Shown piece after piece: positions 28,577-36,879 of a DNA stretch of 64,000 bases; the stretch's first letter is position 1, and each line of letters starts with the position of its first letter. This DNA comes from an uncultured Ectothiorhodospiraceae bacterium (GTDB lineage Bacteria > Pseudomonadota > Gammaproteobacteria > Nitrococcales > Nitrococcaceae): NCBI GenBank assembly GCA_913061005.1, contig CAJXSH010000007.1, forward strand, positions 1-64,000, read 5' to 3'. The notes under the pieces were generated by a model. The model did not search any database. It was not told the DNA's origin and worked only from the letters and a program-made list of their open reading frames with translations. The position numbers and the translations under genes are program-made.

Positions 28577-28594
28577 CCCGGCCCCCGGGCCGGG
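28577..28594 (+). other. GC-rich hairpin between glpU and glpV
   Basis: CCCGGCCC and GGGCCGGG pair perfectly around two central bases, giving an eight-pair stem ten bases after glpU. No T-run follows. Such structures between transporter genes and the binding-protein gene often protect mRNA ends and let the binding protein be made in excess. Confidence 0.55.
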
Positions 28595-28651
28595 TGCATG
28601 GCATCAACCGGGCAAGTGCCGGATGGGCCGGTGCCGCTGCCCTTGGAAACC

Positions 28652-28668
28652 GGGATCACATGGATCCC
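28652..28668 (+). other. Second hairpin directly ahead of the glpV ribosome binding site
   Basis: GGGATC (28652-28657) pairs with GATCCC (28663-28668) around the loop ACATG. It ends five bases before AGGAGG (28674). It could be a 5' stabiliser of a processed glpV message. Confidence 0.45.
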
Positions 28669-28686
28669 CTCCAGGAGGAGAACGAA

Positions 28687-30432
28687 ATGAAACAGCAGAA
28701 AAGCGCCATGCGGCCCTGGACGGCGCTTGCCGTTGCGGCCGCCCTGGGTGTGGGTGGAATGGGCAGTGTCCATGCCGCCACCGCCGAGCAAATGGCTGTT
28801 GCCGAGCAGTACCTGGACGAGTTCCAGCCATCCACGCTGACCCGCGAAGAGCAGCTCGAGCAGCTCGAGTGGTTCATCGACGCCGCGGAGCCGTTCCGCG
28901 GCATGGATATCTCGGTGGTCTCCGAGACCATCGCCACCCACGAGTACGAGGCCAGTGTGCTGGCCGAGGCCTTCAGCGAGATCACGGGCATCAACCTCAC
29001 CCATAACCTCATCGGTGAAGGGGATGTCATCGAGGCCCTGCAGACCGAGATGCAGTCCGGCGAGAGCATCTATGACGGCTACGTCAACGATGCCGACCTC
29101 ATCGGCACGCATTATCGCTACGGCCAGGTCATCCCGCTTTCCGACTACATGGACGGTGAAGGCGCCGATGTCACCTCGCCCTACCTGGATCTGGATGATT
29201 TCATCGGCCTGGACGCGGTGACCGCGCCCGACGGCAAGATGTATCAGCTGCCGGACCAGCAGTTCGCCAACGTCTACTGGTTCCGCTATGACTGGTTCCA
29301 GCGCGAGGATCTGCAGGCGCAGTTCCAGGACATCTACGGCTATGAGCTGGGTGTGCCGGTCAACTGGTCCGCCTATGAGGACATTGCCGAGTTCTTCACC
29401 GAGCATGCCGGCGAGCTGGACGGCCGTGAGGTCTATGGCCACATGGACTACGGCAAGAAGGACCCGTCGCTGGGCTGGCGCTTTACCGACGCCTGGCTGT
29501 CCATGGCCGGTGCCGGTGACAAGGGGCTGCCCAACGGCCTGCCCGTGGATGAGTGGGGTATCCGTGTCGAGGACTGCCATCCGGCGGGCTCGGACGTGAC
29601 CCGGGGTGGAGCGGTCAACGGCCCGGCCGCGGTCTATGCCCTGACCAAGTACATCGACTGGCTCGATGCCTATGCGCCGCCGGAGGCCTCCGGCATGACC
29701 TTCTCCGAGGCGGGCCCGGTCCCGGCCCAGGGTCAGATCGCGCAGCAGATCTTCTGGTACACCGCCTTCACCGCCTCTATGGCCGAAGAAGGGACGCCGG
29801 TGGTCAACGAGGACGGCACGCCCAAGTGGCGCATGGCTCCCTCGCCCCACGGCCCGTACTGGGAAGAGGGCATGAAAGTGGGTTATCAGGACATCGGCTC
29901 CTGGACCTTCTTTGAGCATGCCGATCCCGAGCGTCGCAAGGCGGCCTGGCTGTATGCCCAGTTCGTGACCTCCAAGGTGGTCTCGCTGAAGAAGTTCCAC
30001 GAGGGGCTCACCCCGATCCGTCAGTCCGACATCATGCATGAGTCGATGACCGAGCGGGCACCGCGTCTGGGTGGTCTGGTCGAGTTCTACCGCAGCCCCG
30101 ATCGCGAGATGTGGACCGATACCGGCACCAACGTGCCCGACTATCCGCGTCTGGCTCAGCTGTGGTGGTCCAACGTGGCCGCGGCCGTCACCGGTGAGGT
30201 GACCCCGCAGCAGGCCATGGACAACCTGGCCGAAGAGCAGGACCGGGTCATGGAGCGCCTCGAGCGCGCCGGTGTCCAGGAGCGTTGCGGACCGCGCCTC
30301 AACGAAGAGCGGGATGCCGAGTACTGGTTCAACCAGCCCGGCGCGCCCAAGCCACCGCTGGACAACGAGAAGCCGCAGGGCCAGACCGTGCCCTACGACG
30401 AGCTCGTCGCCAGCTGGCGTGAGAGCATGTAA
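28687..30432 (+). CDS. glpV: Periplasmic glycerol-binding protein GlpV
   Basis: A 581-residue extracellular solute-binding protein (family 1 fold) of the glycerol ABC importer. A signal peptide spans about residues 1-31 with cleavage after VHA. It is longer than sugar-binding homologues of about 400-450 residues, as expected for this polyol group, and rich in Trp and Tyr. The product is acidic, which fits a salt-exposed periplasm. The ATG at 28687 follows AGGAGG; an earlier frame from 28594 covers the hairpins and is not used. It is the last gene before a strong terminator. Confidence 0.93.
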   Translation: MKQQKSAMRPWTALAVAAALGVGGMGSVHAATAEQMAVAEQYLDEFQPSTLTREEQLEQLEWFIDAAEPFRGMDISVVSETIATHEYEASVLAEAFSEITGINLTHNLIGEGDVIEALQTEMQSGESIYDGYVNDADLIGTHYRYGQVIPLSDYMDGEGADVTSPYLDLDDFIGLDAVTAPDGKMYQLPDQQFANVYWFRYDWFQREDLQAQFQDIYGYELGVPVNWSAYEDIAEFFTEHAGELDGREVYGHMDYGKKDPSLGWRFTDAWLSMAGAGDKGLPNGLPVDEWGIRVEDCHPAGSDVTRGGAVNGPAAVYALTKYIDWLDAYAPPEASGMTFSEAGPVPAQGQIAQQIFWYTAFTASMAEEGTPVVNEDGTPKWRMAPSPHGPYWEEGMKVGYQDIGSWTFFEHADPERRKAAWLYAQFVTSKVVSLKKFHEGLTPIRQSDIMHESMTERAPRLGGLVEFYRSPDREMWTDTGTNVPDYPRLAQLWWSNVAAAVTGEVTPQQAMDNLAEEQDRVMERLERAGVQERCGPRLNEERDAEYWFNQPGAPKPPLDNEKPQGQTVPYDELVASWRESM

Positions 30433-30461: not shown

Positions 30462-30488
30462 GGGGGCCTGCGGGCCCCCTTTTCTTTT
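30462..30488 (+). terminator. Rho-independent terminator of the glpDSTPQUV operon
   Basis: GGGGGCC (30462-30468) pairs with GGCCCCC (30473-30479) around a TGCG loop and is followed by TTTTCTTTT. It lies 30 bases after the glpV stop and separates the glycerol operon from copA. Confidence 0.9.
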
Positions 30489-30508: not shown

Positions 30509-30539
30509 TTGACCTACCCCCGGGGGGGAGGGGTAGCAT
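30509..30539 (+). promoter_or_regulatory. copA promoter with CsoR/CueR-type operator
   Basis: TTGACC (30509-30514) and TAGCAT (30534-30539) stand 19 bases apart. The perfect palindrome CTACCCC (30514-30520) N9 GGGGTAG (30530-30536) fills the spacer. G-tract palindromes ending in TA..TA are typical of CsoR/RcnR operators, and the repressor is encoded two genes down. A 19-base spacer is also typical of MerR/CueR activation, so a regulator encoded elsewhere remains possible. Confidence 0.7.
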
Positions 30540-30567: not shown

Positions 30568-32871
30568 ATGACCATGAGCGAGCCAACCCTCACATTGACC
30601 ATTTCGGGACTGAACTGCGCGAGTTGCGTGCGCCGTGCCGAGACGGCGATAAACGGCGTCGACGGGGTGCAGAGCGCGAGCGTCAACCTGGGCACCGGCA
30701 AGGCCCAGATCCAGCTGGATGGTTCGGTGGATCCGGCCACCGCCGCCGATGAGGCGATCGCCGCGGTGGAGGCGACGGGCTACGGGGCCGAGCGGGCCGA
30801 GGCGCCGGGCGGCAAGGCCGATGAGGACAACCCGGCGGCCAAGGAACAGGCCCTTTTGTTGCGGCGGCTGCGGATCGCAGCGCTCTTTACCGTGCCGTTG
30901 GTGATCATCGCCATGGGCCGGCATCTGCCCGGCGGGCAGGCGCTTTTCCATCAGCTGCTGCCCGAGCGGGCGTGGATCGGCATCGAGTGGTTGCTGGCCA
31001 CTCCGGTGGTTTTCTGGGCGGGGCGCGAGTTCTTTGTGCGCGGCTATGCCGAGATGCGCCACCGCGCGCCGGCCATGAGCAGCCTGGTGATGATCGGTGC
31101 CGGGGCCGCCTATCTCTACTCGCTGCTGGTGCTGCTGGTACCGGGGCTTTTTCCCGCCGGCACCGCCGGCAGCTATTTTGAGGCCGCCGGCGTGATCGTC
31201 ACCCTCATCCTCGCCGGTCGCTACCTCGAGCAGGTCGCCCGCGGCCGGACATCGCAGGCCATTCAAAGGCTGCTGCGGCTGCAGTCGCGGACCGCCCGGG
31301 TCATGCGCGATGGCGAGCCGGTCGAGGTGGACGTCGACGCGGTGGCAGTGGGTGACCGGGTGCTGGTCCGGCCCGGCGAGCGCATCCCCGTGGATGGCCA
31401 GGTGCGCGAGGGCCAGTCACGGGTGGATGAGTCCATGCTCACCGGCGAGCCCGTGCCCGTGGCCAAGGCCGCGGGGGATGAGCTCAGTGCCGGGACGGTG
31501 AATGGCAGCGGTTCGCTGACCTTTGACGTGACCCGGGTGGGCGGTGAGACGGTGCTCGCGCGGATCATCGACATGGTCGAACGCGCCCAGGCCGAGAAGC
31601 CGCCCATCCAGCGCATGGCCGACCGGGTGGCCGGCGTGTTCGTCCCCATCGTGCTGGTGGTGGCACTGGCCACCGCCGCCGTGTGGCTGACCATCGGGCC
31701 CGAGCCGGTCCTCTCGTATGCATTCGTCGCGACGGTGAGTGTTCTGCTCATCGCTTGCCCATGCGCCATGGGGCTTGCCACCCCGACGGCGATCATGGTG
31801 GCCACCGGCAAGGGCGCCGAGCAGGGCATGCTCATGCGCCGCGGGGCGGCCCTCGAGTCGCTGGCCCGGGCGGATACGGTGGTGCTGGATAAAACCGGCA
31901 CGCTCACCGTTGGTCAGCCCCGGATGACGGATCTGGTGGTCCCCAGCGGCGCCGAGGACGAGGCCCTTGCCATGATCGCCGCGGTGGAGCAGCACAGCGA
32001 ACATCCGCTGGCCGAGGCCATTGTCAGCGCCGCCCGGGAGCGTGGCCTGTCCCTCTCCGCGGCCACGGACTTTGACGCGGTGAGTGGCTATGGCATTACC
32101 GCGCAGCTCGAGGATCGCTACGTCCACGTGGGCGCGGCCCATTACATGGAATGGCTCGGGGTCGACACCACGGCGGTGGCCGACGCCGTGACCAGACTCG
32201 CCCGGGACGCCCGCACGGTGGTCTATGCCGCGGTGGATGGCCAGCTGCTGGGGGTGGTGGGCATCGCCGATCCGCCCCGGCCCGAGAGCGCCGCGGTCAT
32301 CCACGACCTCAAGGCCGCCGGCCTGCGGGTGGCCATGGTCACCGGTGACCAGCAGGCCACCGCCGATGCGCTGGCCCGGCAGCTGGGCATCGACGAGGTC
32401 ATGGCCGGGGTCCTGCCCGATGGCAAGGCCCGCGAGGTCGGCCGGCTGCAGGCGGATGGCCAGCGGGTGATGTTTGTCGGGGATGGCATTAACGACGCCC
32501 CGGCCCTGGCCCGGGCCGATGTGGGCATCGCCATTGGCACCGGCACCGACGTGGCCATCGAGTCCGGCGACGCGGTGCTGATGCGCGCCGATCTCAATGG
32601 CATCCGCGATGCCTTGAGCCTGGCCCGGCGCACCCATCGCACCATCATCGGCAACTTCGTCTGGGCCTATGGCTACAACGTGTTGCTCATCCCGGTGGCG
32701 GCGGGGCTGCTCTTCCCGTTCACCGGCTGGTTGCTCAACCCCATGGCCGCGGCGGCGGCGATGAGCCTGTCGAGCCTTTTTGTGCTCACCAACTCCCTGC
32801 GGCTGCGGCGGTTTTCGCCGGCGCCCTCCGCCGGGTCGAGTACGCCACAGCCGGAGGTGGCCCATGGATGA
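30568..32871 (+). CDS. copA: Copper(I)-exporting P1B-type ATPase
   Basis: A 767-residue inner-membrane copper pump. One N-terminal heavy-metal domain carries GLNCASC (Cys17, Cys20). The membrane metal site is CPC at 397-399, with TM7 YGYN and TM8 MSLSS, the combination of Cu(I) pumps. The phosphorylated residue is Asp441 in DKTGT, the HP motif is EHPLAEA and the hinge is GDGIND at 638. ATG at 30568 or at 30574 could start it; neither has a good ribosome binding site. The repressor gene overlaps its end by eight bases. Confidence 0.96.
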
Positions 32872-33163
32872 GCAGACCCATTGCGAACTGGCCCTGGATG
32901 ACAATGTCCGCGAGGACGCGCGCCGGCGACTGGCCTCGGTGCGGGGGCATGTCGAGGGGGTGGTGCGGATGCTCGAGCGCGACGATGTCTACTGCGTGGA
33001 TGTGCTGCGCCAGTTAAAGGCGATTAACGCCGCCCTGGACCGGGTGGGTGACACGGTGCTGCGCAGTCACCTGCGCCACCATGTCACCAACGCCCAGGCC
33101 CGGGGGGATGACGAGCGCATCGTCGCCGAGCTCATGGAAATCCTCAAATACCGCCAGGGCTAG
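32864..33163 (+). CDS. CsoR/RcnR family metal-sensing repressor
   Basis: A 99-residue all-helical repressor (DUF156). The family layout is visible: [18 protein letters not shown] as helix 1, then Cys44 in VYCVDVL, and helix 2. Copper CsoR proteins use Cys-His-Cys; here the matching positions are Cys44, His69 and His73 (SHLRHHV), as in nickel/cobalt RcnR. Context with copA still argues for copper. GGAGG precedes the ATG, and it overlaps the copA end by eight bases. It probably controls its own operon through the palindrome ahead of copA. Its stop overlaps the acetyltransferase stop on the other strand. Confidence 0.88.
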
Positions 33164-35871
33164 CCGGCGTCGTTCAACGGCAACCGGACCTCGATGATGT
33201 CCCGGTCGTCGGGGTCGGTCCGCTCGCTGAATCCCAGTTGCCGGCAGAGCGCGAGCATGGGCTGGTTCTCGCGCAGGACCTCGCCGGTGATCGCCCCGAT
33301 GCCCCGCTGCCGGGCATAGTCGATGACATGCTCCATGAGAATCCGGCCCAACCCCTGACGGGTGAGCTCGTGGCGGACCACGATGGAGTATTCGGCCTGC
33401 TCGCCATCCGGGTCGGCGTGGATGTGCACCGCGCCATAGAGCTCGGCCTCGCCGGGCACCCGATCCGGATCGGTGATGATCAGCGCCATCTCGCGGTCGT
33501 AGTCGATCTGGGTAAAACGCGCCGCCGCCATGTGGCTTAGCTGCTTCATGGGGGCAAAAAACCGCAGCCGGATCTGTTCCGGGGTCAGATGCGAAAACGC
33601 CCGGTGCAGCGCCGGTTCATCCTCCGGCAGGATGGGCCGGAGCAGATAGTCGCTGCCGTCATCGGCACGGACCCGTGTCTCGAGCTCGCGGGGATAGGGC
33701 CGGATGGCCAGCCGGCCGGCGCCGTCGCCGGCCTCACCCACCCGGATGCGGGCGTCCAGCGCGATGGTGCCATCCGCCGAGGCCAGCAGCGGGTTGATGT
33801 CGAGCTCTTTGATCCGCGGCAGATCGGCGGCGATCTGCGCGATGCGGGTCAGGGTCAGCGCGATGGCCTCGAGGTCCGCCGCCGGGCGGTCGCGATAGCC
33901 CTGGAGCTGGCGGTAGATGCGGGTGCGCGAGACCATGTCCTTGGCCAGTTTGAGGTTGAGCGGCGGCAGCGCCAGGCTCTGGTCGCGGATGACCTCCACC
34001 GCCGTGCCCCCCTGGCCGAACAGCACCACCGGCCCGAACTGGGCATCCTCGGTGAACCCGGCGATCAGCTCCCAGGCGCCGGCGCGCTTGACCATGGGCT
34101 GGACGCTAAAGCCCTGCAGGCGCGCATCCGGATAGGTCTCGGCCACCCGCCGCTGCATGGCCTCGGCGGCGCTGCGCACGCCCTCGGCGGTCTCGAGATC
34201 CAGCACCACCCCACCGACGTCGCTTTTATGGGTGATATCCGCCGAGAGGATCTTGATGGCGGCGGGCAGCCCCAGCCGTTCCGCCGCCTCGCCCGCCGCC
34301 GCCGGCGTGGCAGCAACCTCGGTGGGCACCACATCGATGCCGTAGGCGGCGAGCAGGGATTTGGCCTCGGGCTCGCTCAGGATGGCCCGATCTTCATCCA
34401 CTGCCCGGTCAATCAAACGCTTGGCCCGGTCATGGTCGGGCTGGAAGAGCTCGGGCACCGACGGCGGGGTCTCGAGCAGCTGCTCCTGACTGCGCCGGTA
34501 GGCCACCATGTGCATGAACGCCCGCACCGCCGCCTCGGGGGTGGTGTAGCTGGGGATGCCCGCCTCGGCAAACCGCCGGCGGGCATCCTGGGCGGTGTGT
34601 TCGCCCACCCACGAGGTCAGCATGACCGGGCGCTGACCGCTGCCCGAGGCCTGCCAGCGTTGATGCTCGGCGATCACCGCCTCGGCCGCATCCATGCTGT
34701 CGGCCACCGCGGTGGGGCAGTTGAGCACCAGAATGGCATCGGTCTCGGCATTGTCGGCGAGCACCGCCAGGGCGTCGGCGTAGCGTTTGCCCGGGGCGTC
34801 GCCGATGATGTCCACCGGGTTGCCCTTCGACCAAGTGGCCGGCAGCACCTCATCCAGCGCGGTGGTGATGTCGTCGTCGAGCTCGGCGAGGTGGCCGCCC
34901 TGGCCGACCAGTGCGTCGGTGGCCAGAACGCCGATGCCACCGCCGTTGGTCAGGATGGTCAATCGATCGCCGGCCGGGGGTTCGGTCGAGGCCAGCGTCT
35001 CGACGGCGGCAAAGAGCTCGCCCAGGGTGTCCACCCGCAACATGCCGGCCCGCCGGAAGGCGGTGTCGTAGACCGCATCCGAGCCGGCCAACGCCCCGGT
35101 GTGCGAGGCGGCCGCCTGGGCGCTTGCCGCGTGGCGGCCGGATTTGACCACGATCACCGGTTTCATGCGGGCCGCTGCCCGGGCGGCGGACATGAACTTG
35201 CGTGCGTCGGTGATGGCCTCGACATACAGAAGGATCGCCCGGGTGTCCGGGTCGTTGGCGAGATAATCGATGGTATCGCCAAAGTCCACATCCGCCATGT
35301 CCCCCAGCGAGATCATGTGCGAAAAGCCGATGCCCCGGCGCTTGGCCCAGTCCAGCACCGAGGTGACGATGGCGCCGGACTGGGTGACAAAGGCAAGCCG
35401 TCCTCGGGGCGGTGCCAGGTGCGAGAAGCTGGCATTGAGCCCCATGCCCGGCACCAGGATGCCCAGGCAGTTGGGCCCGATGATGCGGGTCAGCTGCGGC
35501 CGGGCCGCATCCAGTACCGCCTGACGGCGCTGCTCGCCGGCCTCGTCGCCGCCCTCGCCAAAGCCGGCGGTAATCACCACCACCCCGCGGGTCCCCCGAC
35601 GCGCCAGTGCCTCGACGATACCCGCCACGGTATCCGGCGGCGTGCAGATCACCGCCAGATCCGGGGTCATGGGCAGGGCATCGATATCGGGATAGCACAG
35701 GACCCCCTCGATGGCGTCATGCTTGGGGTTGACCGGCATGATCGGCCCGTCGAACCCGCCGCGAAAGAGGTTGCGTGCCAGCACCGCACCCACGGACCCG
35801 GGACGGCGGCTGGCCCCGATGACGGCGACCGACCGGGGCTTGAAAAGGGCGTCAAGGTTGCGAATGGTCAT
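33160..35871 (-). CDS. Pat-type protein lysine acetyltransferase (acyl-CoA synthetase-like domains fused to GNAT)
   Basis: A 903-residue cytoplasmic protein. Residues about 1-460 form the CoA-binding and ligase alpha-type domains of NDP-forming acyl-CoA synthetases (VAVIGASRRPGSVG, IIGPNCLG, SHTGALAG with His257). About 480-700 form the ATP-grasp beta part, and about 730-895 the GNAT acetyltransferase with RQGLGRILMEHVIDYAR. Proteins of this order, such as Pat/YfiQ, acetylate and switch off acetyl-CoA synthetase and other targets. AGGAG precedes the ATG. It is a single gene convergent with the copper repressor. A true acyl-CoA synthetase activity cannot be excluded, since His257 is kept. Confidence 0.9.
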   Translation of the reverse strand: MTIRNLDALFKPRSVAVIGASRRPGSVGAVLARNLFRGGFDGPIMPVNPKHDAIEGVLCYPDIDALPMTPDLAVICTPPDTVAGIVEALARRGTRGVVVITAGFGEGGDEAGEQRRQAVLDAARPQLTRIIGPNCLGILVPGMGLNASFSHLAPPRGRLAFVTQSGAIVTSVLDWAKRRGIGFSHMISLGDMADVDFGDTIDYLANDPDTRAILLYVEAITDARKFMSAARAAARMKPVIVVKSGRHAASAQAAASHTGALAGSDAVYDTAFRRAGMLRVDTLGELFAAVETLASTEPPAGDRLTILTNGGGIGVLATDALVGQGGHLAELDDDITTALDEVLPATWSKGNPVDIIGDAPGKRYADALAVLADNAETDAILVLNCPTAVADSMDAAEAVIAEHQRWQASGSGQRPVMLTSWVGEHTAQDARRRFAEAGIPSYTTPEAAVRAFMHMVAYRRSQEQLLETPPSVPELFQPDHDRAKRLIDRAVDEDRAILSEPEAKSLLAAYGIDVVPTEVAATPAAAGEAAERLGLPAAIKILSADITHKSDVGGVVLDLETAEGVRSAAEAMQRRVAETYPDARLQGFSVQPMVKRAGAWELIAGFTEDAQFGPVVLFGQGGTAVEVIRDQSLALPPLNLKLAKDMVSRTRIYRQLQGYRDRPAADLEAIALTLTRIAQIAADLPRIKELDINPLLASADGTIALDARIRVGEAGDGAGRLAIRPYPRELETRVRADDGSDYLLRPILPEDEPALHRAFSHLTPEQIRLRFFAPMKQLSHMAAARFTQIDYDREMALIITDPDRVPGEAELYGAVHIHADPDGEQAEYSIVVRHELTRQGLGRILMEHVIDYARQRGIGAITGEVLRENQPMLALCRQLGFSERTDPDDRDIIEVRLPLNDAG

Positions 35872-35946: not shown

Positions 35947-36879
35947 TCAGCCCAGGTGGCGGGCAAGCAAAGCCAGCACCAGCGGCAGCGTCAGCGCCGA
36001 GATGGCCGTCTGCAGCGTCAGCATGCCGGCGACCAGACGAAAATTGCCACCCATCTGACGGGCCAGGATGTAGGCCGAGGTGGCGGTGGGCAGCGCGGCG
36101 AAAAGCACCAGGACCTGGGTCTCAACCGTGGTCAGGCCGATGCCCACCGCCAGGCCCCAGGCGATGGCCGGCATGGCGACGAGCTTGACGGCGGCCGCTC
36201 CCACCATCGGCGCGCCGGTACGCCGGAGCGCGCCCATGCGAAGACCGGCGCCGACGCTGATCAGCCCCAGCGGGACGGCGGCGCTGCCGGCGATCTCGAG
36301 CAGACTGGCAAGCCACGGATGCAGGCCGATGCCGCCGACGTTGAGCAGCAGCCCGAGCACACAGCCGATGATCAGGGGGTTTTTCACCAGGCTGCCGGCG
36401 ATATAGGCGGCGGTGGTGGGGGTGTTGTTGAAGCGGCTCAGCACCAGCACACAGCCCAGGTTGATCAGCGGCACCATGATGGCGATCACCACCGCGGTCA
36501 CCGCCATCGCCGGCTCGCCGTAGACCGCCAGCACCACCGCGATCCCCAGGTAGGTGTTAAAGCGGATCCCGCCCTGGTAGAGCGAGGTCAGATCGGGCCC
36601 GTTGAGTCGCAGCAGGGGCTGCAGGGCGAAGGTCAGTGCACTGCCCAGGGCGATGGTGCCGCCGGCGGCCAGGAACACCGGGACCAGCCGGGCCGGGTCG
36701 ACATCGGCGGTGGCCAGGCTCTCGACCAGCAGCGCGGGGAAGAGAAAGAAATAAATCAATCGACCCAGATCCGGCCAGAACCCTTCGCCGGGGAAATCCG
36801 CCCGGGCCAGGGCGGCGCCGATCACGATCAGGCCAAAAAGCGGGACCAGGGCCCCGAGGATGGCGGCCAGGGTGTTCAT
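35947..36879 (-). CDS. Auxin efflux carrier (AEC) family transporter
   Basis: A 310-residue inner-membrane protein with about ten TM helices in two five-helix halves. The family pattern of a mid-protein KNPLIIGCVLG and a late LPTATSAYILARQMG is present. Bacterial members carry malonate, malate or unknown metabolites. Its ATG overlaps the dinB stop (ATGA), making it the last gene of the six-gene run that includes the trehalose genes. A link to osmoprotection is possible but not shown. Confidence 0.9.
   Translation of the reverse strand: MNTLAAILGALVPLFGLIVIGAALARADFPGEGFWPDLGRLIYFFLFPALLVESLATADVDPARLVPVFLAAGGTIALGSALTFALQPLLRLNGPDLTSLYQGGIRFNTYLGIAVVLAVYGEPAMAVTAVVIAIMVPLINLGCVLVLSRFNNTPTTAAYIAGSLVKNPLIIGCVLGLLLNVGGIGLHPWLASLLEIAGSAAVPLGLISVGAGLRMGALRRTGAPMVGAAAVKLVAMPAIAWGLAVGIGLTTVETQVLVLFAALPTATSAYILARQMGGNFRLVAGMLTLQTAISALTLPLVLALLARHLG

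Follow-up and report, generated by a model that had tools for sequence, protein, structure and literature searches.

A copA-csoR operon in a halophilic bacterium

The window (the whole stretch of 64,000 nucleotides that was analyzed) contains two overlapping genes on the forward strand. The first, copA (30568..32871), encodes a 767-amino-acid copper-type P1B-1 ATPase with one N-terminal heavy-metal domain. This assignment is based on TIGR01511 (599.4 bits; cut-off, 397) and on the motifs CASC at 17, CPC at 397, YGYN at 701, and MSLSS at 732, which were read partly after excerpts of PMC5057107. The second, csoR (32864..33163), has an open reading frame of 99 amino acids plus stop, with an ATG start preceded by GGAGG, and begins within the last codons of copA, giving an overlap of 8 bases. 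Its product matches PF02583 (CsoR/RcnR, DUF156) at 80.5 to 80.9 bits against a cut-off of 22.8, which places it in that family. A sequence-only reading of this locus had proposed a CsoR-family repressor beside copA, and the PF02583 match, the gene overlap, and the TIGR01511 score all agree with that proposal. The residues Tyr43-Cys44, His69, His73, and Glu89 mark the repressor as one of the Thermus thermophilus type; at its N terminus it has His6-Cys7.

An AlphaFold model of CsoR (mean pLDDT, 83.2) has helices at residues 13-37, 44-80, and 83-94, with pLDDT below 50 for residues 1-6. When this model was searched with Foldseek, four chains of 3aai, the CsoR of T. thermophilus HB8 (TTHA1719), ranked first, with 59 to 60% identity and rmsd values of 1.5 to 1.7. 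As modeled, the protein has the three-helix fold of the family.

Upstream of copA lies a gene for an extracellular solute-binding protein (28594-30432), and between this gene and the copA promoter is a strong terminator-like stem (30462-30479) of 7 G-C pairs followed by TTTTCTTTT. Downstream, a CoA-ligase/ATP-grasp/GNAT fusion gene on the reverse strand (33160-35871), which we take to encode a Pat-like acetyltransferase, is convergent with csoR, the ends of the two genes sharing 4 bases; a membrane transport protein gene (35947-36879) lies beyond it. In the source genome (1.65 Mb, 84.7% complete), csoR was the sole PF02583 match found, the HMA domain of CopA was the only one found, and copA was one of two P-type ATPase genes found. 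A search of the same assembly yielded no separate copZ and no match to CueR at E <= 0.001; at 84.7% completeness, the absence of other sensors is weak evidence.

The third metal ligand of CsoR is a histidine

Excerpts of PMC4235346 define the metal ligands W-X-Y-Z and the second-shell positions A-B-C of this family. Alignments to solved relatives confirmed that Cys44, His69, and His73 occupy the positions that are Cys-His-Cys in copper CsoR, as the sequence-only reading had stated. The third ligand stays at the same column in these alignments. That column holds His in T. thermophilus CsoR and Cys in the CsoR proteins of Mycobacterium tuberculosis, Geobacillus, and S. lividans and in InrS. A third-ligand Cys elsewhere in the alignment, which the sequence-only reading had named as grounds against itself, was not seen in the solved relatives. 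Having His73 rather than Cys as its third ligand, the window protein is not a classical Cys-His-Cys CsoR. All 16 aligned relatives and all 80 of the named relatives described below have His73; the residue is therefore neither an error nor a chance substitution.

The second shell of the window CsoR consists of Tyr43 at A, Glu89 at B, and Ile86 at C. Judged from the aligned residues, this combination of Tyr43, Glu89, and a nonacidic residue 86 is that of copper CsoR. All six positions (Y43, C44, H69, H73, I86, and E89) carry the residues of 3aai. M. tuberculosis CsoR (2hh7) has the Tyr, Cys, His, and Glu of the site and second shell in common with the window protein but has Cys65 where the latter has His73, and the LxLD N-terminal extension of the window CsoR falls outside the aligned part. 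M. tuberculosis CsoR belongs to a copper ATPase operon, as does the window protein (PMC10141476, in excerpt). Synechocystis InrS (5fmn) has the family fold but differs in its Pro at A and Cys at Z.

Cys-His-His at X-Y-Z is also the pattern of Escherichia coli RcnR, and an N terminus with His and Cys would likewise suit an RcnR-like nickel/cobalt sensor that lies beside copA by chance. However, positions A, C, and B of E. coli RcnR are Glu, Asp, and Val, versus Tyr, Ile, and Glu in the window protein; E. coli RcnR adjoins rcnA and falls in a different clade. At position W, RcnR has His3 at its start, and the window protein has His6-Cys7 nearby and Glu8 at the place aligned with T. thermophilus His5, residues 1-6 being of low confidence in the model. 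In addition, the window protein scored 28.4 bits with the NCBIfam RcnR model, far below the cut-off of 138, and no nickel or cobalt gene was found among the adjacent genes examined. We consider this reading very improbable.

A formaldehyde sensor like FrmR or a persulfide sensor like CstR would keep the reactive Cys44, as the window protein does, and Cys7 could in principle pair with Cys44. The Cys pair of CstR acts as a dithiol, but the window protein has no Cys at Z to form one. The cysteines given for TTHA1953 are Cys39 and Cys68 (excerpts of PMC10318464). FrmR requires Pro2 along with Cys35 (excerpts of PMC5016687), whereas residue 2 of the window protein is Asp, and E. coli FrmR, although it has the family fold, carries Pro2 and, at the aligned Z column, Thr. 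No formaldehyde or sulfur gene (frmA, a sulfur transferase, or sox) was found among the adjacent genes examined. A sensor of either kind is extremely improbable at this locus.

To place the site among its relatives, residues were compared in 93 rows, duplicates included, representing eight references and 85 of 91 loci; the other six (L121, L125, L127, L128, L131, and L138) had no usable open reading frame. Cys-His-His was found in 47 of the 93 rows. All 33 of these rows with Tyr at A have Glu at B and Ile, Leu, Met, or Val at C; the other 14, which include E. coli RcnR, lack Tyr at A and mostly have different residues at B and C. In a tree of 108 rows, the Tyr-Cys-His-His rows (51 of 51, 3aai included) fell on one side of one branch (support, 85), and this side was joined to M. 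tuberculosis CsoR (support, 99). The remaining Cys-His-His rows, which are RcnR-like, grouped elsewhere with FrmR-like rows, and E. coli RcnR was set apart from the window protein. The tree was built from 87 columns only, long branches come together at M. tuberculosis CsoR, and the details of the tree are unsure. On these 87 columns, the window CsoR is in the same clade as T. thermophilus CsoR, and kinship with RcnR is not supported.

Histidine as the third ligand appears, then, twice in the family tree, in separate parts with different second shells. The ligand triad alone is unfit for telling nickel sensors from copper sensors, a point already argued in PMC4235346, which states in excerpt that the metal is not predicted by the Cys/His pattern. 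The RcnR, FrmR, and CstR readings were set aside after second-shell residues, family models, the tree, and neighboring genes had all been tested. The earlier description of the site as RcnR-like holds only for the His at the third position; in second shell, tree placement, and operon, the protein follows CsoR.

Relatives of the window CsoR are found beside copA in several phyla and classes

When solved chains were searched with phmmer, the best match was 3aai (119.8 bits), followed by M. tuberculosis CsoR (57.7 bits). Among 369 sampled genomes of the class, 38 had a match at E <= 0.001. Members at E <= 1.1e-42 were present in nine genomes, including the source genome, and the next matches were at 8.7e-16 and weaker. 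This gap, with nine of 369 genomes on its near side, indicates that the branch is distinct and patchy.

Relatives were also taken from GTDB genomes, in which 300 stretches encoded one; the best 80 of the 300 were kept (L031-L110). The titles of these 80 loci name Gammaproteobacteria, Alphaproteobacteria, Acidobacteria/Holophagaceae, Myxococcales/Polyangiaceae, and Thermaceae. Tyr-Cys-His-His-Glu is present in 80 of the 80, with Ile, Met, Leu, Val, or Arg at C. Because the search patterns contained Tyr43-Cys44 and Glu89, the conservation of these residues is partly built in; His69 and His73 were not part of the patterns. copA was found in the fetched DNA of 75 of these best 80 of 300 loci; 68 of the 75 are arranged csoR-copA, and 7, two of them titled Spiribacter, have the copA-csoR arrangement of the window. 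In a set of 30 loci, copA lay within the 1.5-kb flanks of 21 of 22 members, the exception being L015, where the contig ends. These data connect the copper repressor of T. thermophilus with a branch that spans a wide range of bacteria, as sampled by the best 80 of 300 loci. Cys-His-His has also been reported in P. pantotrophus (PMC10457146). Among the matches listed in a literature search, no paper was found on CsoR in Spiribacter, Ectothiorhodospiraceae, or Halorhodospira.

Five of the 80 loci had no copA in the fetched DNA. Two of them (L033 and L107) lie near contig ends, and three are from Thermaceae (L096:3669-6091, L098:4688-7616, and L103:4754-7108). The three Thermaceae loci encode a Cys-His-His CsoR, and the frames beside it, read by eye, have starts resembling those of a CopZ-type metallochaperone (L096), of thioredoxin-like proteins, and of an FAD disulfide reductase.

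A probable CsoR operator precedes copA

Upstream of copA, at 30514..30536, is a perfect 7-bp inverted repeat, CTACCCC/GGGGTAG, around CGGGGGGGA; the full element reads CTACCCCCGGGGGGGAGGGGTAG. It lies between a -35-like TTGACC (30509) and a -10-like TAGCAT (30534) that are separated by 19 bases. A sigma-70 scan reported no consensus promoter here, the 19-base spacer being outside the 16-to-18 range of the scan. From its sequence and position, this element is probably the CsoR operator. The 1.65-Mb source genome has a single occurrence of TACCCC-N5..11-GGGGTA and none of the reversed control pattern. A similar element precedes copA in six related loci in which copA comes first, in most of them directly after TTGACC.

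The conservation of the element was examined in the copA-bearing loci, 3 of 75 of which had fewer than 420 bases upstream and were dropped (n = 72). A search for TAC-N-GTA recovered the window site and those of some close relatives. Most loci escaped it, since sites in the wider branch are of the form CCCACCCC...GGGGTGGG, and a palindrome scan was substituted for it. A strict C-tract/G-tract motif within 400 bases upstream was found in 62 of 72 operons. Control stretches taken from these loci contained it in 8 of 1,273 cases and shuffled sequences in 13 of 720, the motif having been defined after the sites were inspected. The window's own element, with five C in a row and not six, fails this strict motif. 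Exact 7-bp arms were found in 47 of 72 operons and 54 of 1,273 control stretches. Since the 64-kb window contains ten C-rich exact 7-bp palindromes, this measure is weak for any one site. With one mismatch allowed, the palindrome matched 69 of 72 operons; as it also matched 512 of 1,273 control stretches, this version is useless as evidence. In the Thermus loci the upstream motif reads CCCACCCCACCTGGGGTGGG, which is contained in the published TtCsoR site, CCCCACCCCACCTGGGGTGGGG (excerpts of PMC10318464).

A -35/-10 spacing of 19 bases is a feature of MerR-type promoters. Within 30509-30539, the element fills such a spacer, yet no CueR was found in the source genome at its completeness of 84.7%.

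The window protein is very probably a copper-responsive repressor

Taken together, the evidence strongly favors the window protein being an orthologue of T. thermophilus CsoR and the copper-responsive repressor of the copA-csoR operon. This reading builds on what was observed directly, namely, the sequence, the ligand positions, the predicted fold, the clade, and the conservation of operon and operator; that the protein binds DNA and responds to metal, and the direction in which it acts on the operon, we infer from orthology with the Thermus protein. T. thermophilus CsoR is described as the copper-responsive repressor of copZ-csoR-copA (excerpts of PMC10318464, PMC10141476, and PMC4235346). 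It has in common with the window CsoR the Tyr-Cys-His-His-Glu set with Ile at C, the LxLD N-terminal extension, a copA partner, and a G/C-tract kind of operator; by sequence, the window operon likewise pairs a Cu(I) P1B-1 ATPase with a G/C-tract pseudopalindrome. The two operons differ in that the Thermus one includes copZ and the window one is copA-csoR, with no separate copZ found.

Under this reading, a three-helix repressor, probably a tetramer, would sit between the promoter elements of copA-csoR, on the G/C-tract operator. At low copper, the apo-repressor would occupy the operator and the operon would be shut down. Cytosolic Cu(I), and possibly other soft metals at excess, would be bound between subunits, by Cys44 of one and His69 and His73 of the other, and the change would be relayed via Tyr43 and Glu89. 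The repressor would then leave the DNA, allowing expression of copA, for copper export, and of csoR itself.

The branch with His at the third position has already been characterized for copper in its T. thermophilus member, an outcome that the sequence-only reading had named as telling against it. PMC10141476 states in excerpt that most CsoR proteins are C-H-C and that T. thermophilus CsoR has a C-H-H copper site, and excerpts of PMC4235346 describe the latter as Cu(I) sensing with His at Z (see also excerpts of PMC5057107). The window csoR is accordingly an ordinary gene of a halophilic bacterium: its unusual third ligand is real, but the Thermus member of the branch is known. The earlier interpretation as a whole is partly supported. 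It had offered either copper sensing with an unusual ligand set or a response to another metal or to sulfur/formaldehyde chemistry; of these, copper sensing through ligands that depart from Cys-His-Cys has the best support, and RcnR-type nickel/cobalt and formaldehyde sensing found no support.

By analogy with the metal range of the Thermus protein, copper may not be the sole effector. Excerpts of PMC5057107 report coordination not only of Cu(I) but also of Cu(II), Zn(II), and Cd(II) by T. thermophilus CsoR, give its motif as H-C-H-H, identical to that of E. coli RcnR, and cite Sakamoto et al. (2010) as holding His70 and His5 responsible for the low selectivity. The window CsoR has the same third ligand, and its two-His site could also take Zn(II), Cd(II), and others, with copA induced by these metals in the cell. 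Against such a response, the pump under control is a Cu(I)-type ATPase and no divalent-metal exporter is present in the operon; moreover, release by a metal in vitro need not happen in the cell. InrS, for example, binds zinc and copper tightly yet does not respond to zinc or copper after 48 h (excerpts of PMC4235346). A broader metal response is possible, if rather doubtful. It is a broadening of the copper-repressor reading, and our confidence in the two overlaps.

An N-terminal cysteine could be an additional ligand

Codons 6 and 7 of csoR (window positions 32879-32884) encode His6-Cys7, next to the LxLD motif; T. thermophilus CsoR has His5, which aligns with Glu8. Cys7 is nearly invariant among the 16 aligned close relatives. 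Among the best 80 of 300 relatives, with the starts of L032, L076, and L102 set by hand, the short N-terminal extension contains Cys in 44, His in 64, either in 76, and neither in 4. His without Cys is found in the 20 loci whose titles name Thermus, Thermaceae, Meiothermus, or Calidithermus, and all 44 loci with Cys are among the other 60. The four with neither residue (L042, L044, L047, and L066) are from Salinisphaera/Lysobacterales, and an N-terminal ligand is therefore not indispensable to the branch. In a comparison set of 30 Cys-His-Cys rows, 2 have Cys and 6 have His at the N terminus; start codons in this set are uncertain, row L136 was misread, and no statistic is claimed. Since residues 1-6 are under pLDDT 50, the AlphaFold model says nothing firm on Cys7.

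From this pattern of conservation, Cys7 could be an extra metal ligand at W. We suggest, as a speculative and on balance unlikely proposal, that outside the Thermus group Cys7 joins Cys44, His69, and His73 in a Cys2His2 or Cys2His copper site, with His in its place and lower selectivity in Thermus. A copper site of this composition with an N-terminal Cys was not described for CsoR in the literature examined. If the proposal is true, one family would hold two solutions, Cys at W and His at W, to the missing thiolate at the third position.
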